From assembly GCF_964204865.1 (NCBI RefSeq), contig NC_135254.1, positions 11,165,001-11,229,000 on the forward strand: a DNA stretch of 64,000 nt. The letters run 5' to 3'. Positions 3,046 to 60,895 of the stretch are shown one piece after another. The notes under the pieces are model-generated. The model was given only the letters and a program-made list of their open reading frames with translations. It did not search any database and was not told the DNA's origin. How positions within the stretch are numbered: the stretch's first letter is position 1; the number at the start of each line of letters is the position of its first letter. This DNA comes from Styela clava. Its lineage: Eukaryota; Chordata; Ascidiacea; Stolidobranchia; Styelidae. Made by a program: the position numbers and the translations under genes.

Positions 3046-6000
3046 TCAATACTTTTTCATCGACTCTAAATCTCTTGCAGTATAGCCTTCCCATTCAATA
3101 AGGTATTCAAACCGCTCTTTCCCATCATTGTCAAACCTTATGCGTTTCCCAAGCACCCTGAATCTCTCTCCACATTTGACTCTATCTTCTGCACCAAAGT
3201 ATTGAGCCATCGCATCTCTGAGCGATTTGACATCATCTGTGCTTCCAGAAGAACTGAATAACAACATAGATTTAGTGTAATTTACAACAATATGATGGTT
3301 AATTTTCGTTTACGAGAGAATATAAATATCTAATGCGAGATAATAATAATTATAAATTTTTCTGCTGCACAATATCATGACAAGAAGACACTGTTACAAA
3401 AATACATACAACTGCTATACTAGATATGCGCAAGCAGCGCAAAGCATAACACATTAGGTAAGATATTATCCATTTGCATCATAGCATAACAGGTCAAAAC
3501 ATCTACGTGAAAGATGAATTTTAGTGCACCTAGATGCCGCATAGCCATAGCCTGTACCCAAACCTGGTACACATACTATGTTCAGGATGTGCGCCATCTT
3601 GGTGCACATACTTCTGGAGTTCTCTAGTCTAGTGTTAGTGATCAGAAAAACCATACCAAGATGAAGCAGCATCATTCAAGAAAGATGAGTTAGATCCCCA
3701 TAATTTGGAAATAGAAGATCCACCTTCTGAGTTTTTACCAGAACTTGTTGAAACATCAGAATTCTGGAAAAACACAAATAAAATTCAGACAATCTTATTT
3801 GAGTACATAGTGCGGCCCCGGTATCTTCAAGGAATTTACCCAATCATGTTTGAATCGCAGATCTACAGACTAAAAATCTTTCCATATATTCCATATACAG
3901 ATCCAAAAAATTATTCTATTATTAATTGATAAGAACTTATGTTATAATGGGTTTCAATATTAAAAGGCATCGTACTTTATTAGAGAATACCCAATTGTAT
4001 GAATGCCAACCATTTTCGGCAAATACATGATTAAAACTAGGAATAAAAATTTGAATACAATAAAATGATTTAAAAATTTTTATATAATTGAATAAGATAT
4101 TTATTAAACGCATAGAACCTTGCGTTTTCTTCGCTTGGATGGAGGACCAGGCCATGAAGCTTTGGACGAGTTAAGTGAAGAATTTGACAAGCTTCTTTTA
4201 AGACCCTCTGATTTAGAACGCCGGCCTGGTCTACCTTTCTTGGGTGGTGGAGGCATACTACCATCACTAGAACAAAACAAAAAATCATATATGATTAGAA
4301 ACTCTGAAAAGATGTATACTGGATATAAGGGCAATGAAATAATTTGCAAGATAGCAGTAGCTCATTGTTTATTAAGGCTATGAAAAGTGATTCAAGAGTC
4401 TTATATATTTCTGTCGAATTATGATGTCTGACGAAGTATGAACTTGATCACACGAAAAGTTACAGTTTATGTGCAGAAAGACTTTTGAATCACTCAAAAT
4501 AGTTACTGTTGTTACAGCATCCTTGCATTATATGTATCAGATCCACCGATGGAAAGGCACAAAAGAAGGATAGATAGTTAGTCCCACAGCTATGCTGATA
4601 TAATTATAGATATAATAGTCAATATAGTGAATTCTATACATCTTTTCAAGAACTTGAACAAAAATGTCAGAAATGAACTACAGGTAGTTGTAAGTATGCC
4701 TCGAAAAATAAAAAAAATTTAAATGAAAACTGAATTTTCTTCAACGAATAAAATAAAATGAAGTTTCAATCGTTTATTCGATATTGTCCACATACAATGT
4801 GTATCTCTTAATACACTAGGTATCAGTTTCGGTTGAGTTTTGCTGATGAATCTAAAAAACCCTATACATACAATGAGTATGATTGCATTCAATACCTTTC
4901 AAATCTTTCAAACAAATTATCTCTGGCAGAATCTACTGGTGATGCTACGTTGAATAAACCACTTTTCACAAGATCTTTCACTGGACTTCTGACAGATGCC
5001 TGAAAAATATTTGCTTTTGAATAAAGAAATATCATCCAAAGCATAATAAAGCACTACCTGATACAACAATATGTGCACTCGCATGATCATTTTTTGACAA
5101 GAAAAAGGATTCAAAGAGTGCCTTATGTTTTTACTGGAGGTCAATGACAATGTGATGGATTGTGTATGCTTTCGGTAATGACTACAAAATTGTCACATCT
5201 GCATCTGTCATCAGTATTTGTCACATTATAACATTGGTCTCACTATTGAATTTATTAGTGTCATCTTACTTAGAAATTGCATAGCCATAGAAATTTCAAA
5301 CATGAAAAAAAAAGTAGATATTTTGACGCTGAATACACAAAAATTTCTGATAGCTTTGGCTACATGGGTACTTCCATAACTCATATCATAACCATCCTCC
5401 TACCTGTGCATTAGAACGAGGAGAAACCGGAACACCTGGTTGACAAGGTCCATTCTTTTTCAGCGGAGTCGGTGAGTCACTAATCACAAATAGTAAAGAT
5501 AGAAAATAACGTTATTATATTCTAAGTGAAATATAACCAAACGAACAAATTATTTCCATATTCATCATCAGTCAAAAACAAAAATTAATTCTACTGAGGA
5601 ACATTCATGATTTACATAAAGAAGAAAAAAAAGAATAAAGGCCAACTGTTTCCTTTATGACCTACTCATATGCGTTTTGCTCTGAATAAGGCCTGGGCAA
5701 GCAGCCACTACTGAATAAGAAGCTTGAAAGAACTTTATATTCAGCATTGCCCATTTAATTTATTTATCCTCAGTGAGCCATTGGATCTGAGATTTGCAAT
5801 ACCATCACACCTAAGTCTAATGCTTTAATATTAGGCCGCAATATCATCAGCAACATCATACATTTAAGTAAAAGACATATCAGAGTTACAAAAAAAATTA
5901 TGGTAGATGAATTTTCCATTTGGATCAAACATATAAAAATAAAAACAAGGTTGCAAAACTTACAACCAGCGCTCACAGAGCTTGAAACAATATTTTTACC

Positions 6001-9000
6001 TCAGTGCACCGGAACCATGTTTCAGGTCTAATGTTTCAAAAGTGTCATCATTAATTTCCAAACCGGCTGGTAAAGATATTGAAGGAGGAAGAGGTGGAGA
6101 ACGATTCCTGAGACCCCAAAGTACTTTGGTTTTCTTGCATTCGGTACTGCTCTGAAATCTGTGTAACAGAAATCAGTGGTGAAAAACTACTATTACAACC
6201 TTGATTCTAATAGCAAGATGACCAACGAAGTCTTAATCTTTAGAAGGGATGAACAAATCGGATATGAAATATCGAATTTATTCTAAATTCGGAGCAAATT
6301 TATGTTAAAGTTACATAGCGACAATCACATCTAAAACAGCATAAATATAATTGTTTTCTCTGTGTTGTTTGTTACCAGTTGAGATATCTTTTGTTAGTTC
6401 TGACAGCTCAAAATCTCGAATTTTTGTTATAAGAACGTTCCAAATTATTCTTAAATTCAAAAATTTACTATGGAATAACGAATATAATGAATGTCGACTG
6501 AATTCGAATATTCGATTCATTTTGGACATTCCTGATCACGACATATCGAAGATTTTATTATTTTTTTTAAAAAAATACCTTGTTTTATAATGTTGAAGAG
6601 TGTCGTTAACTTTTTGTCTTAAATGAGATCTGGTAGCTACATCTTTTGCCATCTGTAAATACAACATACCTTTTTATTTATGACAAGAACATGTTGAATT
6701 AATTTAACAAAATACATAACACTCAGTGAAATATTCTAGACTAGCTCTCATTTCCTACAGTTTGTTGTTCTAGAGACGTATTCTGGTAAATTTTATTTAC
6801 TAACATTTTTACTGAAATATCATGTAAAATAGTGAACAAAAATGCTCTACTGACCTAAATAGTTTTTAAGTTGAAATTAAAAAGTTGAGTAAAATTTAGC
6901 ATTTATTAAACTCAAATTAAGATAGACAAACAAGTTCAAGAATACTGAATTATTTGAATAGTCCAAGATAGTTAATTACTATATTTTGTATACAAAAAAA
7001 AATCACATACACTGCCCAATCTCAGTGATTCCATATGTTTATTGAAGAATGTAATCATACTGTCGACATCGTAATATTTAACCTTCTTAGCGATTGTTAT
7101 GTTGTACAGAACCAAATGAATAACATCAACCCTGCGAAAAAAAAAACATTAAATAACTCATTAAATTCAATAAATAACAATATAATACAGAAAAATGATT
7201 CAACCTATCCAACTTAACAACGAACTACAACCTTTAAAATCTCTTCTGAAAAATAAATTAGCTATTAGGCCATTAAATAGCCTAACTAATGAGGCCAAAT
7301 AGTCTTTATTTGAATATTCTTACCATTTCATAGGTAGACGCTTTATATACTCATTGCCATTGTTGCATACTGCACACACGAACAAGTAATATCTATCACC
7401 ATATAAGATTGGAGACTCAAGACATTGAAGACAAGCTGTTCAACAAGACAGGAAGGAAACAAATAACAGATAATACAAATTAATTCTATTAAGAGTCATG
7501 TTTCAAATTTAGGATATCGTCATGTGAACCAATTTCATTATTTCTTATTTAGATTTAATAAACTTATTCAAATATTACAGTATAAAAAATCAAGCTTGCC
7601 ATAAAAAATTACCACAAGTAAAGTGGGTTACTTACTAGTACAGACATAAGAAAATTGCACCTATCTTAGAATTAGAAATAATGTCATTTAATATATCATT
7701 TTTATCTTACAATTGATTCTTGATCTCCACATTAAAAAAAAGATAGATGACATCAAAATTTCGTTTATTTCAAGGTACAAGAACAGATACTCTGTTCAAA
7801 ATGTTGAAAAATATTGCCATAAGATTCAAACTTATATTTCGAACAGAATTACAACAAAAACAATATAAATTTCAGAAAAGGATTGTTTTCTACTTTTATA
7901 TTCAATTCACTATTTGACATAAGCAACGTAAAATAATACCTTCATGAAACCATTGATCACACCTTGCACACTGAAGCATTTTTAAATACCAATCTCCTGG
8001 GCCACCACAGTAACAATATTTCTGAAAAAAAATAAACCAAACATTTTAACTATAAAATATTGAATATATTCTGAATATAGTGAAGCCTAAATCTATTTGC
8101 CTAAATCATATTCATATATTTATAGATATTAACCGTTATAACTCTTAAAACCGAAAGTTTACATAGTTTTGATCGGTATCCCCCCAGCCATCAGCTAGAT
8201 AGAGACCTGTTTGTTATGGCCAGAAATGTGATTCCAAACTATTTTTAAAGTTGAGAATGTGGCTTAATATAACTGCTGTACTTCCAAATATATTTATTCA
8301 AATATATTCATTCATTTATTCACCCTGGGCTAATAAAACAAAAATTCATTGTACATTTCTATTACCTTTTTCAATAGTAAAGGTATGTCACTTGAGCGGG
8401 CAATTATATAAAATGAGAATATAAAATAAAGAATCAGGAGTCACCTCTTCTTCATTAATTTTATGATTCTTATTCCAAGTGAGGGAGTTTATGTCATATG
8501 GAAAAACACACTTCATCTGCTTCATCATTTCTGAAACAATAAAAAAATGCTTTGAAAAATGTCTGTCATGAAGGATATGCATACAATCAGCACAAAAGAA
8601 GTACAGTCAGGAATTTGAATTTTTCAAAAATGATTGTTTCTCACATATCTGTGGCTATTTGTAAAGAATACAATACAATGTAAGAGTATATTATATTTGA
8701 TAATATATAAAAATAGCAATTGCTAAACAAATTATAGGCCTATAGGCAATGAATTTTTAAAACAGTATTGAAAATGAATGGCAAAAGAAATCATACCTCC
8801 AGCTCCATGCTTTATAGCTCCCCCATTTCTTACGCAAGCTGAAAATACACAATTTCTACATTGCCATGGCACTTCTTCATCTTTTAATACAGTAGAATCA
8901 ATATGAGGCAAATGGCATTCCTGATGATAACCTGAAATTTTTTAATATAATCGTACTGTAATATAGTGAGTAGTGACAATACAATTCATAGCGATGCAAC

Positions 9001-10879
9001 ATAATTAGATACAAAAAATGGATGTTGGATTCAGTTGCTAGCTCTTCCAAAGCAAGCAATTAATACGCCGAATTGCTGTGTGGTTCAAGCATGTAACGAT
9101 ATAAGTCACTCATACATTATGTGCTTACATGCAGAATTCATTCATACAGATTGCAGTTGACGTATATTTGGGATGGATAAAAATTCTGAAATGTCAAAAT
9201 CCCTCATATTTAGATTATTTTTCGCATAATTTTTACAAACATTGTTTTACATCAGAGACGGAGACGTTCAACAAACAGCTTTCGGGCCACAGTATGTTTC
9301 ATGTAACATATTCACATGGCTTATAACATAGTATTCCACTAATTTAATAATGCATTTAATAATGCTTTTCCTTATATGTGACAGCCAAACTTTGTTTGTT
9401 AATAATAAGGCGAGTGTTGCAAGTTTGTAAAGTTAGAATGTAAGAAGCAACATGAAGAAATTTGATTACAAAAAGCAGAAGTGTAATACAATAGTCATTG
9501 AAATAGTTCAATGTTCAATACAACCAAGATGTGATGCAATGCAACACTATTGTATAAAAACTTTGCTTTGTACTTAGCTAATGGACTGTTAGAAGATTTG
9601 GTTACCCATGAAGGCAACAAGATATTGATAAATATTGACAAGAATCATTTGATTGGCTAAAAATGTCTGGCATATTTGTCAATATAAGTAAACACAGATT
9701 GGTTACAAATAAAATAACTCTAACCTTGTCCGCATTTATCACATAAAACAATTTCATTCGGTGGATCAGAAGCTCCATCTCTACATAAAACACAAGTAAC
9801 ATCTGACAATTCATCTTCATCTTCCTCTTTAACAATTTTACCATCTTTTGCATCAGAATCTTCAGATAAATTAATATGATGCAAGTCTTTGAAATAAACC
9901 CAGAATTTGGAATCATCCTCAAATTTCATTTCACATTGCAGACCATGATCATATACCTATAAGAAATGTGAATAATCGAAGAATAAAGCATACCATAGTA
10001 CCAGTATACCTTATAGTAAAATGCAATTACCCTTTATCTAAACAGTTTAACCCGAACTGTGTAATATCTATGGACTAATTTTCATAAAAAATAGACCTAA
10101 AATTTAAAATTATTAGGTATAAATAAAAAAAAATTAATTTATAGTCAAATCATATACGATGAGTTTAAATTTCATTTACGGTAAATTATAATTTTCCCAG
10201 AATTGTTCACCCCTGTAAAATAAAGAATTTCAATTAAATAAGTTTCAAGTCAAAAGAATATGAAATTACGTAATAAAAACTTTCTTACATCACATATTGT
10301 GCCGAGATAATAAAGTCCATCTGACCACCTCGCTAAAACTTCCTGACCAGTTTTGTATTGCCCAAACATTTTACGATAAACATTATGTGCGGAATTTGCA
10401 TGCATACGAGAGCTATATCCTTCGATTTCTCTTTTGTTTTGCAATTTTTGGTCGGATTTCTGATCAGGATGTTTAATTTTTTCTTCAATAGCTTTGAGAT
10501 TTCCCTTGAAGTTAGTTTTTTTAGGCGATGGTTCATTTTTATGAAATCCGTTTAAAACCATATGAGGTGATGATGAGCATTGAGCAAGTTGCCCAGATGA
10601 ACCAAATGATTTTATCTTCGAATATGCTTCAGTGACAGTTTTATCTGTTTGGTTTACAGTCTCTGACAATCCATTCATAACTGGTAACACAATTTTTGCT
10701 TTGCATGGGCTGAGCGATCCCAATTTTCTTTTTGAAATTTTCGTTGGTGATGCAGGTTCTTCCATACCGTCATTTACTTTATGCAAAGACGCCAATGCAT
10801 GCCCATGCTTCGAAATAGAAGCCGTTGCAGTCAAAGGCTGAGATGCAGTACTATGAGAGGTATTTTTATTACGTACCAT
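3046..10879 (-). CDS. Polycomb-like protein (PHF1/MTF2/PHF19 family), 14 coding exons, 744 aa
   Basis: PRC2 accessory factor that reads H3K36me3 and CpG DNA to recruit Polycomb repression (family knowledge). Exons, 5' to 3' on the minus strand: 10289-10879, 9725-9956, 8797-8931, 8445-8530, 7940-8021, 7324-7435, 7011-7131, 6579-6652, 6000-6158, 5404-5479, 4896-4999, 4119-4266, 3657-3763, 3046-3253; all have GT-AG borders and matching phases. Domains: about 170 residues of Ser/Lys-rich leader; Tudor about 173-225 ([11 protein letters not shown], then KFEDD and FWVYFKD, keeping the aromatic-cage W/Y/F); PHD1 about 250-306 (CVLC, CDKC, CRNC); PHD2 about 349-401 ([17 protein letters not shown]); winged-helix EH region about 403-455 with clustered Lys; an AT-hook-like Lys/Arg/Pro stretch in exon 12; C-terminal chromo-like MTF2_C domain (ECGERF-type core, IEWEGYTA) in exon 14. 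Longer than human MTF2 (about 593 aa). The ATG lies one base after a cag acceptor, so a 5' UTR intron or trans-splice is likely. The orthologue cannot be split between PHF1, MTF2 and PHF19, which are vertebrate duplicates. Confidence 0.93.
3505..3625. mobile_element. Decayed palindromic MITE (GG...CC family)
   Basis: Lies in the last intron of the Polycomb-like gene. The right arm gatgtgcgccatcttggtgc acatacttctggag matches the right arms at 18946 and 55954; the left arm (tagtgcacctagatgccgca) is a diverged complement. Borders are approximate and no target-site duplication was identified. Confidence 0.6.
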
Positions 10880-19338: not shown

Positions 19339-22300
19339 TCACGTTCCAGGTTCGGATTCTTTCTTATATCTTTTCCAATATTTTTTGACTTGATCATGAG
19401 CAAATCTGTTGACCACCATGTATCGCTTGCCTTCATTCTGCCACACTAAAGCCTGCAATTCCTGATAATTGAAAAAATTCACATTCATCATTATAATTGG
19501 TCAGGTCAAACCCCACAGAAATAGCGCCTTGGTACAATACAAATTTGCTATGGATCAATTTGCAACTTACAATTACAACAAAACATACTTACTTGTGCAT
19601 AGTCTCGTAGAACTTCAAAATCATGTTGAGTTAAAAATTGATTATATAAAACACCTTCCTGATATATCAATCTGTCTCTTTCCATTTCCCATAACCTGAT
19701 TTGATCTTCTAAGGTTGGCGCAAGAATTGGTGTCTGAAGATTTATACTAGATTAATTGGTTGCACTTTGAAAAAAAATAACAATTTGAGAGTGAATTAAT
19801 ATGATAGAAATATCTCATGCATCAATCAGTGGAGAGAAAGAGTTGCAAAAATATTGCTGACAAAAAAGTTTGGTTGCATTTGTCCAGGTCCACAACCATG
19901 TTTATTTATTGAAATATTTCATATGAATATGTTTTTTGCTGTTTGAATAACAGAATGAATTTAGAGTACAGAGTAGTTTATTTAATACAGTATGATGTAA
20001 ATCAATAAAACTTACATTTTTCAACATGTCTGGATGAGCATTAGCTCTAATATAATGAAGAATCTGTTCTGCACTTATACCATTTGCTATCGCAATTTGA
20101 ACACTTTCCCTTGTTAATTGACCAACACATACATTTGGAAATCTAAAAAACCGACAATACTATTAAATGTCGATAAGTCGATAATGTTAACAAATTTTAG
20201 AAGCTAAAATCCTACCTGTACAACAAGTCACAAAATAAAGATAATATTGCATATTGTAAATCTGAACCTAAAAACAAAGATATAGGATAATAACAATCAA
20301 AATGAGTTGCACAGAGAAAAAGCTTGGGATCCATCTTTCCTTAAAAAGCTGGCAATCATAGATTAAAAAAAACTTCAATCATTGCTTTGGTATGTCAATG
20401 TTTAATTCCTGATTTATAAGATTGAATGTTAGTTTATGAGAACAATATAAGTGTACATTATTAAAAGAGTATTTTAGATTCTTTAATGCCATTGCCAGCC
20501 TACCTGTATAGGCATATACTCTATAATTGGTTTCTGCAACAATGAAGCCTTTTTGGTTTGAACTGACTGACGTTTGAGAAAGTCCATTAGCAAGATTTAC
20601 TGCAAGGCGCGTTGGGTAAAATCTTCTTGATGTTCTCTAAACAACAAGTTTTTGTATAGTGGTAACAAAAAATTGAAATTACAAAGATTTCATCTATAAA
20701 ATTAATCATACTTTTCTCTGAAATACAAGCCCCATTTCTCGCAAATGTTGTAGACATTGAAGTACATGATCATCTCTGCCATCTGTCGGTAAATCCTGCA
20801 AATATGTAAGATGAACATCAATGTCTGCTTGAAGGACCCTATTTTAAATTCAACTTTGTGGCTACTTGAAGGTATTAAAGGGTATTGCTTTATGTGTGGT
20901 TGGCGTGTAAGATCTGGTCGTGGTCTGCAGCAGAATTTATAGCACACAGTTCAATTTAATGCCTAAAACAGTAAATTATAGTTTGTTACAAACCATTTCT
21001 AGTGTAGTGAAACTCAATTCAAATAGAAATCGTAGGATAGGAACAAGATTCATCCCCCTCTCCCTGATCCATTTCAAATATTCAAGGATAAAGAACCACA
21101 CCTAAATGCAAATTCAATAAATTATAAGAACGAAAATAACACTTTTATAGATGTAACTTAGAATAAGTTAAATATGCTATTCAATTTGTCACCTGAGATG
21201 GTGTGTCCATTAATAAAAATTGAAATCCTTTGGCAGTTATGAATGGAGCTTCCTTGCCATCATCATCACACATTCTATAACCAAAACAAACAAACAATTG
21301 ACACACAATATTATCAAGTTTTTGAATCTTAAACAACCTTCTTCAATTGACAAGTACGAGTTCCAACAGGTTTCTCAATTTTATAGCACTGCGCTAGATC
21401 GGCAAGAGCTATGCTGGACTTGGTAATCAAAAGTGTACTAGATGTAGGCAGAGGGGATAGTTTATGAAGTCAACTGGGCACTCGTCAGTTTATGAATAGA
21501 TAATAGGTTGTATGATCCAAAGAAGTCTTCTTGCTATAAAAGATCAAACTCCAATTTAGCCATTTAGGATACAAGCAACAACGATATACCTCATCAAACC
21601 AGATTGTAGCATTAATTCTTTTATGTCGCCGCTAACTGCTGCAGATTGTGATCCAACGAGGTAATGTAAAATAACTTCCCATCTTTCAGAAGCATATTTA
21701 TCCAATGCTTCAGCGTCTTTTCTATGTTTATCAGGGCCAAGATTTGTTGTTGTTGACCAGACCTGACCACTGAAAAATTCATCATATACGACATAAGAAT
21801 GAGTTGCTATCAGCATTCAGCATATACTTTCGAAAAATTTGATAGCCTATAACAATAAATACATCTAGAAATATCACCAATTCTAATATTTAACTGAAAA
21901 TATTGCAACTAGGTGCAACTTTGTACATATATAAGTATTGGGGACGGGTGGGTTTCATATCAAACATCCTGGCTGCATCTGAATTCCTATTGCAATGGCT
22001 ACTGTGTATTTTACATTTTAATTCGATGATCTTGAATCAAATGATCAAGCAACATGAAAGAAAAAAATCATAAATGACGAGTAAATAGCCTATATATTAT
22101 ATAAACGTTAGTTACACTTACCCTCCAATCAATGCCTTTTTCAAATTATTTCGAAAAGTTGAACTCAAATTATAAGCCGGCAATCCACCTTGTAATGATA
22201 TTTGCACCCAGACTCTTAAATCACATAGCACCGTAACTGCCTCTTTGTGGTCACTGGAAATGAGAAATATTTAATTGACCAAACACATGGCAGTTGGCAC

Positions 22301-44531: not shown

Positions 44532-47500
44532 ATGGAAGTGGAGATTAACAGTGATGAAGATGAAGTTGTAATTCCAAAGTCTACGTCATCTCAAAAGTTG
44601 ATTGTACCGAATGGGATTGAACGTTGTGCCAAAAATAATAATGATGTTGAAATGTCGAAGAATCATAGAAATAAAAAAACCATAATTGAAGATAAAGAAA
44701 GAAATAACGCGGTTGAAAATTTGGAAGATGTCTACATTATACCACCACCATCTGGAAATAATGTTGAACTTGAGTTATACAATTTAGATTCTAAAAAACT
44801 GAAGATCAGTAATTCAATGTTGGATCAAAATAATGACTTACGTATTAATAAGTTTACTGCTTTTAGAAAAAACAATTCTTTCCCTCTTTCTGCCGATTCA
44901 AACGGACCTTTTGGACAGCTTAGTAAATCAGAAAATTTTCAAATTCCATTACAAAATGGTGTAGTAAAAAGACTCTTACCCCCGATTAAAAAAGTAGCCA
45001 ATAAAAAGCACAGAACACTTTCAGACACTGATATTATTTCTTATGATTTCGAAAGTATGCCGAATAAATCACTATCTACCATCGACGGATCACCTGCGAA
45101 AAGTTTATCAATAGAACAAACAGGTAATTACTCAATTCATTTATATTACGTTTACTGTATAATCAATTTCTGAAAATAAATTTGTGTTTTCTTTCTTCAC
45201 ATCACATTTGATTTGATTTGAAGACTTTCAAATTTGAAAATCTTTATTTTTTTTCAGTAAAATTACTGATTCTAACTTTTTGTCTTTGAAATATATCCTA
45301 ACTAAGTTAGAATTTGTTACTATTCCTTATTAAATATTTACATTATTATGACATACTAGTATTGACATTGAGTTGTGTCACACATGATGAATACTATGCT
45401 ATGCCGGTATTACATATTTCGAGGTCTATGGATCTGGGCCTTGAGGGGGGGCATAATCAAGGCCCCTCACTAGGTGCCATTCGTAATGCTTGCACTTATT
45501 TAACATAAACTGACTTTTTTGGTTTAATAATTCGTTGACTCTAATACATAATGCTTTCATTTAATAATTGATGGAAATATGTTAAAAGCAGGGGCAGTAT
45601 TGAGAATCTTTGAAAAGGCAGTCAAAAATGATCAATTTTCAGAACGACTGTATGTTTTCCATCGTTCAAAGACTGATGTATTTCATTGTATAGCCTATTC
45701 AAAAAATTTTATATAAAATTATGTATATTTTGAAATTTCCGATTACAATTTTTTAGCAGATGAAATGGCTGTGAAGTTCCAAGTAGGAGGAGATGATGAT
45801 GATGATGATGAGTTATCTGATGAAGAAACATTTGATACAAGTACATCCTCTGATCATGAATCTGAGCAACAATCTTCAACATCTTCCTGTTCAGAAGATG
45901 AAGAAGTAGAAATGGTAGGTACAGGATGATTAAAGTGGGAAAATAGAAACTGATAACTAATATATTCAATTGTTAGTTAAATAGTGATTTTGACTTTGAA
46001 GATTGCATTGCATTTTGTTTGATAAATTTTTCAAATTTCTAGTAAATAATTGTATTGTAAAAAAGCTTTGGGCTCATAAACTAATCAATTTTCAAATCCT
46101 ATTTCCTTATATCATAAAATTTTATTTGCACTTCATTATTATGATGGCGACATTGTGTCGAAATGATATACAAAGACAAATCAAAATAAAATTTTTTCTT
46201 AGTTGTCTCATATAACGGTAGTTCTGATTGGTGTGTCGCAGAATATCAATCCATTCCCTACAAATTATTCAATACCGTATCCGCCGGCACTAAAAATTCT
46301 CATTAAATGTTAATATTTATTAAAAATAAATTAGCGTATCCGAGTACCAGTATCTTATTTAATTAAAACTATTTCTTGTCGTAATTTAATAATATCAATA
46401 AATTTAAACTTTTTTACCAATGCATTGACGACGTCTTCAAATGCTTTGAAGTTTGTGAGTAAGTCAAATGTCAGTTTGAAAGTTTGGAACGTCTGCCGTA
46501 TTATATTTCCCTTTTTGAAAATTTAATGTGAATTTTGTAACTTTGTACTTCAATCAATCTGCATAATATATATATATATATAAATATCTCTTTAACAAGT
46601 GGTTTTTTCATTTCCTGCCCAACAAAATATAACAACGAGTTCACTCATTCTTATATTATTAAACAATATTCATCAGTCATGACCATAATACATTATTCAT
46701 TCGGCTGTTTAATATAGAATTAAATTGCATATGCATTCGGTATAATCTTCATACACTAATGAAATTAATTCCTGATGTTATAATACAAGGAATTGGTTCT
46801 CCTGTTCAATTCATGTTTTATTATTACCTGTATTCTGTGACTAGCATATGCTGATGTATATGGCAAATGAATGATTTGTTTTCTATATTGACATGTACCG
46901 TAGTTATAGATTTGGGGGAAATTATACAGACAGTTGCGTGATTTTAAGGCTTGCATACCCCGCATTGATACCCTAGCCAGCTCGTGACCTCATCCATAGT
47001 AGCGAAAGATTAATTAAAATAGGATTACATTAGGATAGGATAGGATTTACATCAGCGCTTTTCAACCAGGGGTCCTCGGCCCACTAGTGGGCCGATGAGT
47101 ATTTCGTTGCGGGCCGCGAATTCGTTGCCAAATTATTCGTAATTTTCTATATTTTGTGGTAAAATTGGAATTATTTGGACTTTTAATAGGATAGCAATAC
47201 ATTTCTAAAGAGGATCTCAATCGATACCAGGATAATACTGCTTTCATTTTTCCATATGTATGAAAATACGAATCAATTACGAATTTAATTATGATCGGGC
47301 AGTTTACCACAAATTTTATGTCCGCAGATTGCAGCGATATTTTAGAATAATATTACTTTCATTTTTTCGTAAGTCATGAGTTAAGTTGAACAAAATTTAA
47401 TTAATAACAGGTACAGCATTTTAAATGCTGGTATCGGTCATGGATTCGAATATTTTTTATCTACAGAAAATCATCCTAATAAAATTTGATACTTTTAACT

Positions 47501-50500
47501 ATCATTATCAAATATATTTGTAAAAAAGCAGGAAAAAGTATAAATTATTTTTGGGTATCATAACAATTACGGCTTCACATAATTTTCACCGTTCCGACGT
47601 AACGGAAATTAATGGGTAAATAGGAAGCCTTGCAGGGGCTTGGCGTCAATTCCCAATACGAAACTGTGCAAAATTGTCGCAACCATACGCGACACACGCT
47701 CGCACAGCAGATAACAATCAAGGTATCGATTTTATTTCCTCACCATTACAATGGATGTTTCCCTGACCTTTGACCCCAGAAAAATTCTTCCTATACTTTA
47801 CTATGGCAAAATTTTATATGCTGTTTTGAGAGTATTTTGGATAGTTGGTGAATATAAACTGGTGCACCTGTTCTTCGGTTTCTAACCGATATTCTATCAA
47901 ATGTTGATTTTCTATTTTCTCAATTATTGTTATAACTTGTCGATTTTAATCGGTAAGTATGTTGATAGGTATTTGTCTGTATGTATGTTAGATGCACGCG
48001 ATATCTCACGAAAGCGAGATTGAATCTGCTCCAGATTTTGCACGTGCATTCATCTTATCTCGGACCAGCAGCCTATTGATTTTGGGCAAATTATGTCACA
48101 TAATTAGCGAGTTAATAATTAATTAGTGATGGGACACAAGGTGTCACTATGGAGTAAGAGCGCTGTTTTGGGGGATCCCCTAACTTTCGATCGATAAGTC
48201 TTCGGTCTCTGACCGATATTCTCGTTTTATATATTGATAAACCGTATAACTCGCCTTACACATTTTTGAACCATGTAGGCCTACCAATTGCTTTTATAGA
48301 TAATTTATTTCGTAAGACTAAGAGTCTTCATAAGAACATATAGACGGAGCTATAAACTCATAAAGCTCAAAATCCATTTATTACTGCTGTTGATTAATGA
48401 TATTTAAATTGTCTTCTATTTGATTGATCAAATATTATTCTTTAGAAACCGGTTTGGCTATGTATTGCATACGCTAGGTAGGTTGGTGAGCTATCTTAAT
48501 AATAACTCTTATCCGGCCCGGAGTAGTTTTGTGCGTTTTTTTCTCTGTAATATTTTCTTACCTGTTATTCATGTTATCTTGCTTTTTAACTTATTGGATT
48601 GCTTTTGCATTTAATTCTCAATTCTTCTTGGGCCCTGTAATGACTCCAGCACCAGAAAACCTCGCCCCTATATTACCTCATTCTCTATTTGAAGGTGAAC
48701 TAAACAATGTCCTTGGTTACCGGCACCGTACTCTGTGCGGCCATATCTTTGAAATGTCGTTCCCATGGTTACATAACTGACGGTGCTCGGAGTCTAGTGT
48801 TGTACATATTTGGTTTGACTTTTGCTGTCTTTTTTTCTTCATGATATAATGTTTGACTTCTTTCTCTCTTCTGTTTATATTTCTGTTAGACTAATTCGCG
48901 GGTGTCGCTGCTCGTTAACCAGTTTTGGTTTCTCGCGATTCCTTTCGCCCTGAGATGCCGTATTTAAATGCCTTTATTATATTTATTTGCATGAAGTGTT
49001 TTTTTTTTCGGTTTGGTGAAAAAATAAATTACTGATTACTGATGTTTACAACCATGCTTGAATTCCAATTGGTACGTCATTATTGACTTACTGCTGATTA
49101 GCCATTGTTACGGAAATAAACATAGTTATCGATTGTTGGGGGAATATCTATATCGGGAGGAATTTTTTAAAAGCTTTCCCTCAAAGTGGCTATTATTTGA
49201 AAATTTGCCGAAGAAGTATTCGAATATCTTGATATTTGATTCCTTTTGAACAACCCTGCCCCGACCTCTGAAAAAAAAACGTTAATAAAGGTTCTCCGCA
49301 AAGTAAAACTCTCAATGTAAGTAGGCCGCAATATAAAAAGATTGAGAAGCACTGATTTACATATTTATCAGCCTCCTGTTCAGATGGAATTAGTTATTTG
49401 TTTCAGATGCATGAACTTGATGGTGGAGAATGCTTTACCGACCAGCGGTGGTTACCGGAACCATCCTACGACAGCGAGGACACCAGCAATCCTCTTGCAA
49501 ATAATTCCTCCACAGAATTCGAACTTACGAATCTACTTAGGGTAATCAGCGATGCGGTGGCCAGTGCAATTCTAACGTTCTAATGTTTAGCATGATGCAT
49601 CTCATCGTCGATTAGTAGGAACATTGATAAACTTTAAAACTTAAAGTGTATAATATAGCCTGTTTGGAGATGAGTATGATGTGTATTACTGTATTTAAAA
49701 ATAAAGGATGATGTATTTTTTATGAACTCATGATTGTGATTTTTCAGTAAAGAAAGTCGTTTCTGTTCAAGTGTTAAAATGTCACCTTCAGTCTCATTCT
49801 GGAAAATGCTACTTCATTGATTATTTGAGATAAATCCTTTGTTTAATACCCTCTTGCCTTCATTAATGCAAATCATTAATGCAATACTCGCTATGCAATA
49901 ATCCTTTCAATCATTAATGCAAGATATTGAGTGTCTACTGCATGCATGTGGCTTTGACAGCATTGTTATATTTGGTTTTATTATGAATTGCATAATGTTT
50001 GAATTTGATATAGACTTATCTTATGTTGAGGTTTGAATATTATATCATTCAGTCAGTTTACAGTCTTACAGAGTTCGTAGGCGAGAACTAAATATTCATG
50101 TGAAGTGCCAGTTGAACTCTTAGATCACAAACTGCTTTTGACAAGATAAACAAAAGCAAAAAAAATAGGTTTTATATTTAGGTGAATCTTTTCAATATAA
50201 ACAAGGAATCATATTAGTAATGTTATTTGACATGATGATGCTAGCGGAAAAATGGCGAATATTCTTTATGTGTAATGCAAAACTTTCCAAATGCCGATTC
50301 AGGGATGTCCAAAACGAATAAAATATTCAAATACATTAGAAATTCATCATATGTGATGTAGTAAATTTTTGAATTTAGTAATAATTTAAAACATATTTAT
50401 TTAAAAATTAGGGATTTTGAGTTGTCAGACAAGTAGAACAAAACACACGATATCTCAATTGGTAAGAAACAACACAGAAAAAACAATGACCTTTTAGATT

Positions 50501-53500
50501 TGATCAACATTAAGATATAGTTTTTATGTAATTTTCCACATCAAATTTAGCCAATGTAGAATGTATGCCAATTTAGAATGTATTCAACATTTCATATTCA
50601 AAAATATTTTCTCTGAATGTATTTGAAATATTCGGTTTTGGCCATTTCTGACCGATATATTTCATTGCTCAAAAAAAGATTGTTTATTCATTCGTTCAGT
50701 CATTATTAATGTTTTTTCATTATTTAATAATGATACTATGTCTAGTAATCAGAAATAAGTAAAGCTACGACTAGATTATAATTTATCGATAGTTTGGTAA
50801 CTACTGGTCTGAATTCAGGCAGGTTCAGGAATCTAAATTAATGCCAGTTTAAAATTTATTTTTATAATAGCCTTCCTTATTAAATAATTGGTGCTTTTTG
50901 ACAGTTTGATTGATTGATAAGTTTTAACCTTTTTCTCAGGCAGGTTCAGGAATCTAAATTAATGCCAGTTTAAAATTTATTTTTATAATAGCCTACCTTA
51001 AATAATTGGTTTTTATTGACAGTTTGATTGATAAGTTTTATCCTTTTTCTCCTTTTCTGTTAATAAAATTTAAAGATTTTATAAAAAACACAAATGCATC
51101 TTTCATTCAGTTTCTGTCATTGTAGAACAATTTTGAAATGATAAGAGAAGTTCTAATCTCTAAAACTCCCATCAAATATTAACAGATCTCATAATACAAT
51201 TTTTTTAAATTTTTACAGAACACCTTGAATATTTCTGAAAATCTCCAAACAAAACTTCTCAAAGTTTTAAAATTGGAAGAAATAAGAAGCAAGAGCCCGA
51301 CGGCATCAGTTGCTTCAGCTCCAGTGTTCCCGAATAAAAAACGACTTTCATTAAGCGATGACGAAGATAACATAAGTGTAGTGTCAGATTCTAAGGTCAG
51401 TCAATGATTCAAAATATTATTGTTTGAAGGACTTAGTTGGGCCTTTCTAAGCTGAATTTCTTTGATACTGTTTTAATAACTTGATATTTTTGATTAAATT
51501 TACTTTATTTTCGTATCAGGTTATCAGAATACGCTCTGGATCAAGTAAAAATCGAGGAGGGGTGTCACGTAATTTATTGACCCCTGAAGATCGAAAGTCG
51601 CGCAAAAAATCAGCTTCTAGCGATATAGAATTTATGGCAAAACAAAAGGATGCTGATCTCTCACCACGCAGTGCTCTTGGTGATGAAATATTGGATTATG
51701 ATGATGAAATATCAGAAACACCCTCAACTAGATCAACCGGAATTTTACCTGCTTTATCTTCACATGGTGTGAGAGAAAGGTAATTTGATGAAAATATTTT
51801 TTAGTAATTTTTTGAATTTTTAAACAGCATCCATTACTGTGGAGAATCAATGCTCTGTAAAGGCATGTAATGTCAAAAACAGGTTAGTTTGTTATCTCCA
51901 GACAATTTACTTTCGCTAGTCTTGTCAAGTTCACTGCCCAATCATTTGTTAAAAATTTCAATTGACCTTTGGGTTTTCAATTTAATTTGGCTCAAAAGCC
52001 TTTCACAATATTTTTGGTAGAACAACATACTTGGCATGGGTCTACCATAACAGTTCGCCTATCATCAATGTATTAAGCTAGAACTTTAGTTGATAAAACT
52101 ATGCACCAAAATGTAATTTTCCTCTTAAATAGAGAAGAGCGTCACTCTTAATAATTAATGCTGTCTGATTGCATATCCGGAATAAATTATTCAACTAATC
52201 CAGTTTTGTTCCAACTTTGTAACGTCACACCCTTTATAAAAGCATAGAATTATTTAGTGTTTTGTTAATTGGTATTGGGAAAGTACTTTCTCTCATGTGG
52301 TCCATTTTCATTTTCAATATGGGGATTTCATTCATCTGTAATTTTGTTGGGGTCATAAATTTACTTCCCATTTCGGCCAATTTCAGTCGGTTCGCCCAAT
52401 CTTAAACGACCCGAAAATTGACTGTACCATATATAATGTGTGGCTCAGTGATTAGATTGTTTATTACCATTATCATGTCTATGCCAGACATGGCCAAAAC
52501 TGAATATTTCACTATTACGAATACATTGTCAGAAAATATTTTTGAATATGGAATATTGAATACATTTCAATTTGTGGGGAAAATTACATAAATATGTACA
52601 CAATCTAATCTTTTTTTACATCTTGTTTTTTTTGTGCCACAACTAGCTGTATAGCAGAGGGCGTTGATAAGTAAAATATGCCATTTTATATTTATTTTTA
52701 TGGTATTAATAAATCAGCATTGTCAATATGGGTCCAAAAAACATATTTGTGAAAATTTTTCAATGGGTTATGTTTATTAATAAAGCTAGTAGGTGATGGT
52801 AAATGCAATATTATACACCCCAGCCTTGTTAGGAGTAAACTTTTTGAACTACAATAAAATATACTAGGCCTATAATGTATATAAATATTGCAATTCGAAT
52901 ACTATTTATTATATAATGCGACAATTATCTATTGAAATACTGTATATCAGAAAACTACCGGTATTCTTCAGCCCTCAGAATTTTGTTATTACAATTTATT
53001 TCATAATTATGCTGTAGAATTCTGTAGAAAAACAATTTAAAACAGTGTATGTTTGTATTGGTGCGACGGGAATCTCCACTATTAACCAAAACCAAATATT
53101 CAATGTTATTCTTGAAGCTTTCATAACAAAGAAATCGGATTTAATGAAAGACGCAACAATGAGATGGAAATTCATTTAGGTCATGTCTCGTAAAATGGCG
53201 TTTTTTTGATCAGTTCTATTCAGTCTGTTTCTCCCATTTTAACAATGGACATTGAAAGTTGTGTTCTGTTGGCTTGTGCTTCATTCAATGTTTCGTACAT
53301 ATTATGTTTAGGAAAAGAATAAATTGGTTGACGGTTGACGCACACAACAACGATCAATCCATTATCAATTGGCTAAATTAGATAACACGTATCAAGTGAC
53401 CATACGTTTCATTAAGTCAGTAGTAGTAGTTCTCATACTTTCAAGATCCATGGCTCCCTTCCAAACACTCTCATCCTTTGTGAACACCTGAACTTCTATG

Positions 53501-56500
53501 AAAATACTAAGTTTATAGCTTATTGCTTTTTCATTAGTTATTTTATGTGGCGTGCTTAATTTTAATAAAAATAATAAATAATAAATGTATTACAGTCAAA
53601 GAATTTACCCAATATTTTATAAAAGTAGACATGAAATGTTGCATTATATTCCTAATTTGGTCATGTCGATTTGGAAATCCTTGTCAACAATACATATACA
53701 AATCCAATCAATTGCTATACATATTATTTTTTCCTAAATGAAGTACCCTACATTTATTTAGATATTTCTATGTTGAAAGTGGCATAAAAATAACCAAAAT
53801 CTATTTTATGTCATAGCTTAGAAGATATTTCTTGCCTAGGAAGTATTACTCTATAGGTGTGATGCAGACAAACCAATCCAATTAATTGGAAAATTTTCAA
53901 ATTTATTGGTAAATATGATTCCAATACCCCGCAGACACAGTTTACAAAATCAGTATATAAAAACTTGCATGATTTATCAGCTCAACCAATGAGTATTGTC
54001 ATTAGTCTGCAAACACTCCACACCCTAGGATCAAACATTTTATTTCATTATTTATTGCCTTCTAAGATTTGTTTGGTAACTGTTTTCATAGTTCCTATGT
54101 ATTAAGGTATTGTTTAAATGTTTGTTATATACACAAATGAAAGCTTGTCTGTGACGTTGGTACAGCTTGTAGAGGGGAAAAGTGCTTGGTTATAAACTTA
54201 TAACGGGTTATATCATAGTTGATAAATTTGTATAATATACATCAAAAGATGGCCTATTTTTATAAGAAATTGATGTTTTTCATTGATTTTGTGAAGTCTT
54301 ATTCGATTTATTTTGGGAAATGATTATTTATTTAAATAGTTCGTGGACAAAAAATTATGCCTATTTCGGTGTTATAAATAAAAAAGGTGAAATAAAATTT
54401 CCCTTTTTCAATTTGATAAATATAATAGCCTACTAAGTGAAACCGAGAGTTATAGTACAATCATGCTTGGCAAAAGACATTCCATGACATAGATATATAG
54501 CAACCCATTGTCATCTCTGTGTGACCGGCGAAACATAACACTTTTCATAAAATCATTTATATTCAACTGTGTCATCATCATAATGTTTTGTTGGTTGCCA
54601 GACAATAGACAAATTGTATTGTTCTTGGTCTTATCTACACAAGTAACCTCCGACCGGTTTCATTCTTCTATTATTGCGTCCATCCCATCTACATAATTAT
54701 GGAATCTCAGCTGATCTGATATGAAGAAATAAGTGTTTTTTTGATGTTGATGAACATTAATAATAGCTGTTTATGTGAGGAGAAATGGTCATGGGTTCCA
54801 TTCAATACCTAATCATCAATAAAATTCTTCATGATCATTGGTTTATGTACACTAAGTGCACATGCTAAATTGTTTTTATGGTGCGAAAATTGCCTTTCTC
54901 TGCAACTGACTCATATTATTTCAATTGAAGCGGGATCATTTTTTTTATCCCAATATGTTTGACTGACGGCTTTCGTCACTGTATTATAAAACAGGCACAT
55001 GGCCTCCATGCCCATATATTGTGAGCAATGCTCTTTTTTTTCAATTACTGTTTTTTTTTTATTCTTTGGTGTTTGGTGTCATCATCATATCATAATGTTT
55101 CATTTCAGTACTTATCAATGATAGGTATTACTGTCATCAAGTAGTGAATCTATGCTTTACTTTATATTTCAGGAATTTTCTTGTGGGAAATTTAACGAAA
55201 CATGGATCACTACTTGGAGCTGACGAATTGAACAGATATTTTCCTGATCGTATGCTGAGGTTGTTTGTTGGTAAGGAGGTCGATCATTTCATTCATAGTC
55301 AAACAATGTTCCTGAATAGTTTATCATTGATATCATGCTATTCCGGTTCTCTTACCTTGTTCTATACAATTAAGTAATTGTGGCATTCAATTGCGCAACA
55401 CTCAGTATAGTCTTAAGTGTCCAAATAAGGTTTCAGTATACTTAAAAATCTGTTATCTTCTCTGAGAAAAATGCATCGTACAAGTTTTACTGTAATATAT
55501 CCTAATTAATAACTATTTATGTGAATTAACATAAAAGTGATGTTTCTAGTTCTGCCATATTATGTATGCAATTATGCAATATTATATCAGATTTTCAATC
55601 TTCTTTCAAACAAGGATGTTGCTTTCAAATTACATGTGTGCGTACACTCTCAGTCATATCCAAAAAATGTCTTAATAATGGAACAAATTTCTTAAACAAA
55701 ATTTGAGTATCTGCATGTTACATTCTCCCAGGAACATGGAATATGCAAAGAAAAGGCGTTCCAAGAAATTTGAATGATTTTTTATTACCTCAGCACGAAG
55801 AATATTTGCAAGATATGTATGTAATTGGAGTGCAGGAAGCCACACAAGATTTGTAAGTCCTAAGATGGTATCGTTTTTTTTGACTCGTATGATTTAAAGA
55901 ATGTAATGACAACCAAATATAACATTTCAGTAAAAAAATTGTATATTATTCTCGGACCTCCAGAAGTATGCGCACCAAGATGGCGCACAACCTGAACCTA
56001 GTAGGTGTGTACCGGTAAGGATTCAGGTTGTGCGACCTATTCGTGCGCATACTTCTGGAACACCTTATTCTCACTAAAATATTATTCAATAATTAAAATA
56101 CTTAGATTAATCGGAGTAGGTCTGTTGAGTTTGTTAAATTCTTTGAACTGATGGCATTCGTATTCAGTGTGATGCTGAGCAAGCGTAAGTTCAATACAGG
56201 AGACCACGCCACGCCTATTGTGTCAATTCCTATACAAATATCTCTTGGCAATATATTATTACGATTCATAGCTTGTGGCAGAGCTGAAGTTTTTCTTAGA
56301 ATTGTACAGTCTTGATGACATCCCATCAAGTTCACTTGGTATTGAATAGTCTTTTGAAAACCTGTGTGATTTTAACCTTCAGTATGTTTGTCGTTACCTC
56401 ACTGTTGTCACAGTAATGTGCTACTTGCACTTTTGTCAAGATTTTTTCAAGTACCTGCTCATGTGTTCGAGAGTTCTCATTTAAAAGCGCTGTTGCTTTG

Positions 56501-59500
56501 TTGTCAGATATAATTAACAATTACGAAGCATTCCTGTTCGATCACAATGATTTTTTATTAGCATGAGGGTTAAATGAGAATTTTCTTTAAATATAGTTTT
56601 AACTCGACATCATCGAGTAATTTGTCAACATGGCATTAACAAGAAAATTTCTGAGATATAAATCATCATAAAATAGCACATATGCAAGCTAAAACATATA
56701 ATATTTCATATATTATTTTCGGATTTTAAAATATATTTAAATTTTATGTATAGGCATTCACTTACCACTTACAGTGTTTCCCAACCTGGGCATACTTTTT
56801 ATACATACCCTAAATTGTTTATGTATCTAATTTCAGGAAAAAGTGGGAAATAAAATTGCAAGAAACACTTGGTCCAAATCATGTGTTGGCACATGCAGTA
56901 TCACACGGTGTTTTACATATGTCTATATTTATAAGACGAGATCTAATATGGTTTTGTTCACGTAAGTGTCATGGCTCTTGTCACAGATGTGGCTTTATAT
57001 TCAAAATAAATATAACACATATTGCAAAATGATTAAATCATCGTTACTGGAATTTTGATATTGTAGCAAAATATTTTACTGTCATAGAAACACAAGTTCA
57101 GTGATATATATTCGCAATTCAGTATACAAATATAAAAAATATGCTGTGACCAAATATTGCTTGTGATGGTCTCTTTTTTTCATTGCATTATCCCAGCCCA
57201 GTTGGCTTTACTAGTTGGGTAGACTGTGGAATCATGTATGTCTGCTGGTTTGTGTAACCTAACCCACTATATTACCTGGGAGAATTAGAAATCGTTTGGT
57301 ATGCTAGTCCATATTTCTGCATCAATGTGGCTTCTGTACTTTTTGCTGTGATTAAATACAGAAGTATTGAATTTGGAAAAATTCTTAGATAATGGATCTT
57401 TTCTTTTTTCATTTGTCTAGTCATTTCATTATGCTTTGTTCCAAGCCTCAAGTTTTTTTTTACAACAGCATTCGAAGAAGATCGTGTGACAACAAGAATG
57501 GTTTCACAAATCAAAACGAAAGGAGCGGTTGCAATATCTTTTCAATTTTTCGGTACATCAATGATATTTATAACATCACACTTTCATTGTAAGTTTTCAT
57601 TTTGAATACCAGTGAGAAATAATGTTGCTTCTCTTCAATAGCTAATTGTTAGGTATCACACTTGCACAAGCAGGATGAAGCATATTTCAATGAGTGCTCA
57701 AAGCAATATTCTCATTACATAAGGAGCTGTGGGGGTTGATTCTAAGCAAATCACATATTACCGTAGTAGTATTAAGGGTTATCCTGTAGTGTGTGGGTTA
57801 GGGTTAGTCCATAATTTTCTTTCGATTTTCCTTATTTAGTTCTATTACAAGTTTGGGGACTGTCTGTGTTAGCCAAGTGAATATACCATAGGTTCCAGTC
57901 CCTTTACACAACATGATGTAAAGTAGGCGAACAAAATCAGTTAGCTCCACATTGGTACGCACACTTCTGAAGCACTGTATATAGTATATTATATACATGA
58001 AAACTGTTATTTTGAGAAATATTAATGGAAGATTATAGAACAGACATGATATGTTGTAAATTATGTTTTCACTACACTTTGAAAATAGCCGATTATTTTA
58101 GATTTACTGTCAAAACACCATTTGGCCTGAAATTCAACTTTGTTTTATATGTATATTTAGCTTGCCAGATTTCCAAATTCAGATTTGAAAATATGAAATT
58201 GAAATATAAATTGATCTCAATATGAAAATATCCTATTATTTTAGATTTACTGTTAAAACATCATTTGGCCTGAAATTCAACTTTGTTTAATATATTTATT
58301 TAGCTTGCCAGATTTCCAAATTCAGATTCGAAAATATGAAATTGAAATATAAATTAATCTCAATATATACTCTGTTGAGTATGATCTGTTGTGGTATAAA
58401 TTCAATATTCCATATTTAAAAGTGGTATTATAAAATGTATTCAAATCAGTGCATTATTCAGTATTGACCATCTGTATAATGATGCTCGATTATGGATTTG
58501 GGATTATTATATATACATGTTTATTACAGCTGGTGAAACGAGGGTGAAAGAACGCATCGAAGATTATAACAGAATAAAAGAAAGAATTAAATTACCTAGA
58601 AAATTAAAATGGGATACTTATAAAAGTTCACAAGATGACGTTACAACAAGGTAAATCTAAGTAGAATAGTTCAAAATTTAAAACTCTTTATATAGAATGC
58701 TTTTAAAAAAAAAGAATTCCCAATTATTCTGTGGAAAAAGGCATTTTTGTCACTTGTTTTTGAACAAGTTATGGTTGCTCTTACTTTATGAAATCTTGTT
58801 TAATATGACCAAGCATAGCATAGAATATATATGGCCTGCACTGTACAAGACTTGTTCTTGATTAGTTAGTCCTTGAATTATCTTCAATTTCGTTTTTACT
58901 TCCAAGATTTGATTGTACGTTTTGGTTTGGAGATTTGAATTTTCGAGTCAGTCAACCTCATGAAATAATGCACCAAGAAGTTAACAATCCAGATAATTAT
59001 AATTTCAAAGAGGTTCTAAAAGGAGATCAACTCATTGCAACAAAGAAGAGAGGTGGGTACATTGTTATTTTTTCATTATGCTCCACTGTTATGGGAGGGA
59101 ATCTTTACTCTTTATGCTCTCTAACTTTAAATTAAACAAAATCATTATTTCTACTCCACAAATCTTGAACATTCAGAACTGTTAATGTTTATTCTAATCA
59201 CCTTATCAACCGCTTAACCGAGGATTATATATTACCATTTGAGTGATTGAGTCTTTCATGTTTTAGTGCAGTTTAAAATGAACAGTTTATCTTTTTCATA
59301 ATTTTCAGGTAAAATATTTCATGAATTCACTGAAGCAAAGATAAGATTTCTTCCAACGTATAAATTTAATCCTGGAACTGATAAATATGACACATCACCC
59401 AAGTTACGAGTTCCTTCATATACTGTAAGTAGGTTTTCTATATTGAATATATAACATTCATCTGAAAAAGAGGATAACAATAAAATGACTTGATTATATG

Positions 59501-60895
59501 GCGATTGTCTTGATTGTATACAGTATACTATTCAATATTTCTAATATTTTAATCAAATGAATTCTTATAGATTCTCGTTGCTCGATATTATTTTGGAAAG
59601 AGTTATGCTATAATCTGTCCCATAAAAGATTGTTGGACTACTCCTTGTTGCAGTGTGGTTTGCGAAACTACCTGTAGATTATGGCTTCCTCCGTAATCGA
59701 GGTTGTGCACTTGAAACTGGATAATTGCCATATGCTTAGTCTACATTATCGTCTTCCCTCTCCTCTGCGATAAATATAAAACTACCAGCCAAAATATCGT
59801 TATTTTACTCTGCATTTCTTTGGAAGATAATAGTATATATGGCCTGATTTCTTTCGGGAAGTCTATTAAATTTGCATTCATTGATTTCTAGGATCGTATT
59901 TTATTCAAGTGTAAAGAACATACAGTTGTTAACTGTGGAAAATATGACAGTGTTACTACGTTGAGGAAATCTGACCATCGACCAGTTTATGGACTGTTTG
60001 AAGTTTGTTTAAAACCAGGAAGAGACAGGTTTGTGCTTAGTTTGATGATCGTAAGTTGAGTTTCAGTAACCTATGGCAGTTACTTACGAGTAAATAATAG
60101 ATAATGATTCTCCAAGTTTTTGTGTGGTAAATTATAAGATACCTCACCTGGAGAAATGCTAGTAACTGGTTGCTCGATTCAGATACAACAATTACAATTA
60201 ATAGTTTGGTCACAATATTACCACCACCAAGTGAATGGAGCAAATTTCTCCAACTGGTGATGGTATTGTGGTATTACGAAATTAAGGGTCTGCATTGATC
60301 ATATTTCAACCATTACTGCTTCACAGTAATTTTCAAATGTATTTTTTAATTTTTTTACATAAATATAAGCATATATATGTCCAGGAAGAAGTACTAAAAG
60401 CTAAAATTTATAAAATTCCCCGGAATAGGTAGTAAAAAGTTGAAAGTTTGTGACAAGCGATTTTTGAATATTTGATTCAAAGTTTAAGTATATTGCATCA
60501 CTCATAAAAGAGTGACTAAGCATAGAATCAGACCATACATGAACAATTTTGAGTAGCATCAGGGCATGTTTATGCTGAAACACTTCAGATGTAGTAGGCC
60601 TGTTTTCTTTTGTTACAAGAAAATCGAGGCAATGTTTTATTGTATGGCTACAAAACCAAGAGCAGTTATCGGGTCAATTTGTTAACGGCCTGAAATTCCC
60701 ATCTGTAGTTATTACACTGCATGTTTTGCAGATTGATTCTAAACAAATATTTTAAATTTTTATCTTTGGTTTATTTAACATAGTATTCCATTCGGAGGAG
60801 GAAAATTCAGAAATGATGTTTATGAAAAAGCTGCAAGACTACGAGCAAAACAAGGAAATTATCAAAATAGCAGTGCTGTGTGTTCGATACTTTAA
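44532..60895 (+). CDS. INPP5E: Inositol polyphosphate-5-phosphatase E, 13 exons, 760 aa
   Basis: Ciliary enzyme that removes the 5-phosphate of PI(4,5)P2 and PI(3,4,5)P3; human mutations cause Joubert syndrome. Exons: 44532-45123, 45757-45914, 51219-51395, 51520-51779, 55173-55270, 55732-55852, 56837-56961, 57469-57588, 58530-58650, 58907-59052, 59309-59424, 59892-60028, 60784-60895; phases all agree. Residues 1-400 are disordered, Ser/Asp/Glu-rich, with a run of six Asp in exon 2. [14 protein letters not shown] leads into the catalytic domain from GTWNMQ at 429: [53 protein letters not shown] near 596-604, PSYTDRIL near 675-682, [11 protein letters not shown] near 704. The C-terminus [10 protein letters not shown] is a CaaX box (C757), as in human (CSVS). 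Exon 10 uses an aag acceptor. Intron 2 is 5.3 kb and carries a SINE split by a hAT element; intron 5 is short; the palindromic MITE at 55954 is in intron 6. Human protein is 644 aa; the extra length is all N-terminal. Confidence 0.96.
47024..47052 (-). repeat. tRNA-derived SINE, copy 3, tail
   Basis: Tail tract ttaggataggataggatt of a SINE on the minus strand, cut from its body by the hAT element. 47045-47052 (ATTTACAT) is the left target-site duplication. Confidence 0.85.
47053..49354. mobile_element. hAT element (2302 bp) inside a SINE, in intron 2 of INPP5E
   Basis: Ends CAGCGCTTTTCAACC and (complement) CAGTGCTTCTCAATC, flanked by ATTTACAT at 47045-47052 and 49355-49362. No transposase could be read; the interior is a patchwork that includes a repeat shared with 15640-16080 and a tgacctttgacccc block shared with the element at 12708. 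Subterminal gtgggccg and gcgggccgcg motifs near the left end. Confidence 0.93.
48560..49040 (+). repeat. Dispersed repeat, copy B (inside the hAT element at 47053)
   Basis: Diverged match to 15640-16080 in the same block order, including tcgttcccatggttac, gtttgact and gcgggtgtcgctgctcgtta. It is nested in, or part of, the larger hAT element. Confidence 0.6.
49355..49595 (-). repeat. tRNA-derived SINE, copy 3, body and decayed head
   Basis: Continues copy 3 after the hAT: atttacatatttatcagcct, gatgcatgaacttgatggtg, cgacagcgaggacaccagca, cctcttgcaaataa. The head region (49515-49595) still shows attcgaactta in place of box B but has decayed. Confidence 0.85.
50820..51055 (+). repeat. Tandem duplication, 121-bp unit, two copies
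   Basis: Copy 1 starts at 50820 and copy 2 at 50941, both with caggttcaggaatctaaatt. The first 60 bases are identical and the rest differs by small deletions. Intron 2 of INPP5E, 160 bases before exon 3. Confidence 0.92.
55954..56064. mobile_element. 111-bp palindromic MITE (GG...CC family), perfect TSD
   Basis: Arms ccagaagtatgcgcaccaag / complement ccagaagtatgcgcacgaat, both running into gcacaacctgaa; loop cctagtaggtgtgtaccggtaagga. Flanked by TTATTCTC at 55946-55953 and 56065-56072. Same family as 18946-19036. Intron 6 of INPP5E. Confidence 0.93.
57826..57978 (+). repeat. 155-bp dispersed repeat, copy 3 (intron 8 of INPP5E)
   Basis: Same block order as the copies at 209 and 34500 (ggggactgtctgtgttagcc, ccctttacacaac, gatgtaaagtaggcgaac). 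All three copies in the window lie in the same orientation. Confidence 0.75.
58081..58366 (+). repeat. Tandem duplication, 143-bp unit, two copies
   Basis: Copy 1 starts at 58081 (gaaaatagccgattatttta), copy 2 at 58224 (gaaaatatcctattatttta). They differ at a handful of positions. Intron 8 of INPP5E. Confidence 0.92.

Follow-up and report, generated by a model that had tools for sequence, protein, structure and literature searches.

Do genes that lie close together on an animal chromosome still show that they come from the ancestral linkage group behind the human regions paralogous to the major histocompatibility complex (MHC)? This question is raised by a 64-kb stretch of contig NC_135254.1, all of which is referred to here as the window. 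Eight cellular genes were recognised in the window by codon scoring, splice models and comparison with Pfam and PDB, and five of these (a PHF1/MTF2/PHF19 homologue, GTF2H4, C6orf136, PGLS and INPP5E) have human relatives in MHC-paralogous regions, a placement that is in print for some of them and presumed for others. The five probably go back to a single ancestral linkage group of chordates, the source of the human MHC-paralogous regions on chromosomes 1, 6, 9 and 19; with 64 kb to judge from, we regard such linkage as likely but short of proof, and we infer that all five belonged to the same ancestral chromosome.

Genes were located by scoring codons, by applying a simple splice model and by splicing between anchors, which were chosen by eye with human proteins as a guide, and the results were checked against Pfam and PDB chains. 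Automatic models of GTF2H4 and INPP5E were incomplete; other automatic models merged the kinase, a C6orf136 exon and the kinesin-like gene, or PGLS and a transposase, and were split by hand on protein matches. A six-frame Pfam scan (E up to 0.01), which covered approximately 38.6 of the 64 kb and left 3051-10999, 19400-24179, 29168-31299, 36102-36699, 41502-45899 and 55302-60799 outside, recovered C6orf136, PGLS and SNRPD1 again. All five genes stand where a preliminary description of this DNA had placed them (Table 1), and, judging by protein matches, their identities are firm. The GTF2H4 model matches the TFIIH p52 chain of PDB with 587 bits as well as Tfb2 (431 bits) and Tfb2_C (87.5 bits); its splice scores range from -0.4 to 5.8, with the weakest joins close to zero. 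The catalytic part of INPP5E matches the 72-kDa inositol polyphosphate 5-phosphatase of PDB (2xsw, which we take to be human INPP5E) with 363 bits, the next-best paralogue being phosphatidylinositol trisphosphate 5-phosphatase 1 (125 bits); the frame ends in a CAAX-type box, CSIL, and the first splice join of the model scores -8.6. With regard to PGLS, Glucosamine_iso scored 67 bits in one exon and 49.9 bits in another, and 108.2 bits in the six-frame scan. C6orf136, the first exon and joins of which were set by eye, carries DUF2358 at 33535-33834 on the plus strand (30.1 bits, cut-off 24.3; 25.0 bits in the six-frame scan). Finally, the PHF gene carries, all on the minus strand, Mtf2_C at 3046-3309 (59.4 bits, cut-off 27), PHD pieces at 7905-8045, 8735-8941 and 9720-9956 (21.4, 18.6 and 16.7 bits, each below the cut-off of 24), and Tudor_2 at 10250-10897 (29.3 bits, below the cut-off of 31.4).

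Two further observations concern these gene models. Candidate pieces of the last C6orf136 exon occur at 34289-34345 and 39815-39913 (plus strand); an exon at 39.8 kb, if real, would put the antisense PGLS gene inside a C6orf136 intron, and it is weak because part of it is a lysine run encoded by a run of A. A 143-bp tandem duplication (58075-58360, 92% alike) lies within an intron of the INPP5E model.

We take the human positions to be 6p21.32 for PHF1, 1p22.1 for MTF2, 9q34.3 for INPP5E and 19p13.11 for PGLS. A passage of PMC1309616 lists four MHC-paralogous regions (6p21.3, 9q33-q34, 1q21-q25/1p11-p32 and 19p13.1-p13.4) and places C4, C5 and C3 at 6p21, 9q33 and 19p13, respectively. That PHF19 lies at 9q33 and that GTF2H4 and C6orf136 are near each other in human, both of which the preliminary description had given from general knowledge, agrees with print: PHF19 is placed at 9q33.2, in a region named jointly with C5 and TRAF1 (excerpt of PMC8638425), and among the listed genes of the human MHC class I region seven separate C6orf136 from GTF2H4, with both of the latter carried by zebrafish chromosome 19 (passages of PMC1309616). 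Here, one recognised gene, the kinase, separates GTF2H4 and C6orf136. A literature search returned no paper that names GTF2H4, C6orf136, PHF1 and 6p21 together.

How far chance explains the cluster was calculated with assumed group sizes. The probability that at least five of eight genes fall in any one of 17 equal ancestral chromosomes is 5.7e-4, as compared to 1.5e-4 for any one of 24 equal groups and 1.7e-3 if the 17 groups are assumed to differ in size; for a group that holds 10% of genes, P is 0.007 after correction for 17 groups. The count of five in eight holds for the whole window, but not for the shorter span to which it was originally applied, which includes seven recognised genes, with SNRPD1 lying outside.

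Shared ancestral linkage would have been kept by inertia, not function: inter-chromosome exchanges would be rarer than within-chromosome inversions and genes would therefore keep their chromosome while their order is shuffled, with the human MHC-paralogous regions as duplicates of the ancestral linkage group. In a constrained model for macrosynteny in animals, inversions are approximately 15 times as frequent as inter-chromosome exchanges (passage of PMC3283319). Such linkage is probably ordinary macrosynteny, i.e., another instance of a known ancestral linkage, because the MHC region, along with three loci paralogous to it, has already been traced to one of 17 pre-duplication (pre-1R) chromosomes, chromosome 9 (Sacerdot 2018, excerpt of PMC6193309), and because a 2007 paper already discussed that the four regions may stem from a proto-MHC region that Ciona and Branchiostoma possess (excerpt of PMC1945033). 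The term "notable relic" in the preliminary description was thus too strong, given this 2007 discussion and given that macrosynteny in Ciona is described as weakened yet present (excerpt of PMC4122922). Like the MHC paralogon of Sacerdot, the families found here (five, some by presumed position) map to its human regions; unlike it, they occupy a single 64-kb stretch, and a classical anchor family was not found in the scanned part. The protoMHC region of amphioxus is similarly a linkage that has genes in common with the human MHC region and a scrambled local order, but a complete region is reported in lancelets (Huang 2014, passage of PMC4284660), whereas here eight genes are visible, three of which do not belong. 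A likeness also exists to deuterostome and bilaterian ancestral linkage groups, in which genes are retained on one chromosome over deep time (excerpt of PMC11175523).

A number of points weigh against descent from one linkage group. The human positions of INPP5E, PGLS, PHF1 and MTF2 are presumed, three of the eight genes (the kinase, the kinesin-like gene and SNRPD1) do not fit the group, and the target group was chosen after looking. Relatives of PBX, NOTCH, RXR, BRD and C3/C4/C5 were found neither among the identified genes nor in the scanned part, where many-short-exon genes could be missed; a 64-kb window need not contain one of these classical anchors. If only four of the five genes truly belong, P rises to 0.012 with 17 equal groups, and the unequal model leads us to expect about 3.5 such windows per 2000 by chance. 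If the group is drawn broadly (15-20% of genes), the corrected P is 0.05-0.18, as compared to about 6e-4 with 17 equal groups; whether the cluster is unlikely by chance thus depends on how the target group is drawn, and the clustering of five of eight genes in one group is suggestive, not decisive. Nakatani 2021 regards the hypothesised proto-MHC chromosome as an artefact of inter-duplication fusions and later rearrangements and splits it over several proto-vertebrate chromosomes (passages of PMC8302630); 19p13 or 9q34 genes therefore might not belong with 6p21, and a count in which 1p, 19p and 9q are pooled is weakened. With regard to the proposal that this DNA is a proto-MHC fragment, common ancestral linkage stands as the best reading, while the proto-MHC chromosome itself is disputed by that source. 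In addition, Lv 2011 counts Ciona among the animals in which macrosynteny is far less conserved, and Oikopleura among those that have lost it (passage of PMC3283319), which lowers the expectation of linkage if the animal is a tunicate.

A more far-reaching proposal, namely that a 60-kb block in a scrambled tunicate genome has kept unusually dense proto-MHC linkage (five of eight genes, including INPP5E and PGLS), seems doubtful to us. It is also unlikely that chance combined with a generous definition (i.e., large regions, multi-copy families that offer several tries, and one striking window picked among many) accounts for the cluster; the corrected P obtained with broad regions and the artefact proposed in PMC8302630 both speak for this explanation, but GTF2H4 and C6orf136 are near each other in human and share one zebrafish chromosome (PMC1309616), whereas for a genome of 20,000 genes the probability that any of 28 gene pairs lies no more than 8 positions apart is about 0.02, and the probability of a chance cluster is at most 0.17% in three models that take a single ancestral chromosome, out of 17 or 24, as the target. 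Local microsynteny, in which GTF2H4 and C6orf136 (and perhaps the PHF gene) were kept together, e.g., by a common regulation, with PGLS and INPP5E beside them by chance, is rather improbable; conserved ancient gene pairs do exist, with 54 of 595 found in C. intestinalis (passage of PMC4122922), but GTF2H4 and C6orf136 are non-adjacent both in human and here, and therefore do not resemble a shared regulatory unit. An assembly chimera of unrelated pieces is scarcely credible, as no sign of one was seen in the window sequence, which contains no N letters, is even in composition (G+C 0.305-0.382 in 4-kb steps over 64 kb), carries copies of one dispersed repeat close to each end and in mid-window, and includes three multi-exon genes that span approximately 28 of 58 kb.

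Table 1. Recognised cellular genes, in their order along the window, and transposon pieces
Feature	Coordinates	Strand	Evidence	Remarks
PHF1/MTF2/PHF19 (Polycomb-like) homologue	3046..10879	-	Mtf2_C, PHD pieces, Tudor	Exon model only partial
GTF2H4 (TFIIH p52)	19339..23268	-	Spliced model, Pfam, PDB	12 exons, 461 aa
IRE1-like protein kinase	29154..31319	+	Pkinase 98.5 bits	Single exon; not counted in group
C6orf136 homologue (DUF2358)	32272..34345	+	DUF2358 and flanking coding segments	C-terminal exon uncertain
PGLS (6-phosphogluconolactonase)	35143..36237	-	Glucosamine_iso, spliced model	4 exons; 5' end not located
hAT transposase pieces	36767..38698	-		Transposon, not counted
Kinesin-like gene	41463..43472	+	Microtub_bd 26.2 bits, just below cut-off 27	Single exon; not counted
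INPP5E	44532..60895	+	PDB match, exon models, C-terminal frame	CAAX-type end; N-terminal exons uncertain
SNRPD1 (SmD1)	63595..63966	-	LSM 68.6 bits (63.2 in six-frame scan)	Single exon; outside group

Among the genes outside the group, the kinase has the IRE1 kinase as its nearest PDB chain (79.6 bits); as read by eye, its HRD motif is replaced by HMA and its DFG motif by DYG, and it is therefore probably a pseudokinase. A KEN ribonuclease domain after the kinase appeared plausible by eye, but no such domain was found there in Pfam (E up to 5) or PDB (E up to 10); RNASEL, presumably located at 1q25 in human, was thus not taken as a sixth member. The kinesin-like gene, which we take to resemble CCDC78, matches kinesin motor chains with up to 50.3 bits and has no P-loop lysine (the motif reads GSGN). 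SNRPD1 bears a long RG-rich tail; we take its product to be SmD1, as recognised from sequence. The human positions of these genes are presumably 18q11.2 for SNRPD1, 16p13.3 for CCDC78, and 17q and 16p for the IRE1 genes. Three of the eight genes in the window are single-exon genes, as compared to 12 exons in the GTF2H4 model. A 16-base Ciona-type spliced leader has a single match in the window, which contains two mismatches (0.36 expected by chance), and 64 kb is too short for lack of a leader to say much.

The window is animal DNA. A search of all 64 kb found no tRNA gene, and the six-frame scan identified transposon domains and no further cellular gene in the part that it covered, where many-short-exon genes or genes without a Pfam domain could escape. 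No immune domain (MHC class I/II or other) was found among the identified genes or in the scanned part. Within the hAT pieces, zf-C2H2_12 scored 33.6 bits and DUF4371 18.2 bits (below cut-off); the six-frame scan gave zf-C2H2_12 again, together with Dimer_Tnp_hAT (26.6 bits, cut-off 21.4), at 36.7-41.5 kb. HTH_Tnp_Tc5, a Tc5-type transposase DNA-binding domain, scored 30.2 bits within 11000-15987 (plus strand), near an open reading frame at 11591-12025. Comparison of a transposase with prokaryote genome contigs, as a check for contaminating host DNA, gave 18 pattern matches, none of which was confirmed. A repeat with the core CACCAAGATGGCGCA has five matches with at most two mismatches (three of them exact; 0.05 expected), at 3527, 3590, 18965, 19003 and 55973; a search of viral contigs for the repeat pattern found none. 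The dispersed repeat is present in three copies (207-357, 34502-34652 and 57826-57973) with 66-85% identity to reference copies.

No bearing on immunity was seen; the recognised genes are of housekeeping, chromatin and ciliary types. A window like this one is what conserved macrosynteny would yield, and common descent of the five genes, if true, would lengthen by one the list of genomes that still reveal the chromosome from which the MHC-paralogous regions arose. Should the animal be a tunicate whose chromosomes rearrange rapidly, the finding would carry greater weight, as it would then provide a marker for reconstructing the chromosomes of that lineage. If an unusually dense block had indeed been kept in a tunicate, INPP5E and PGLS would be placed in the ancestral group, and the block would represent a calibration point for the rate at which tunicate chromosomes are scrambled.

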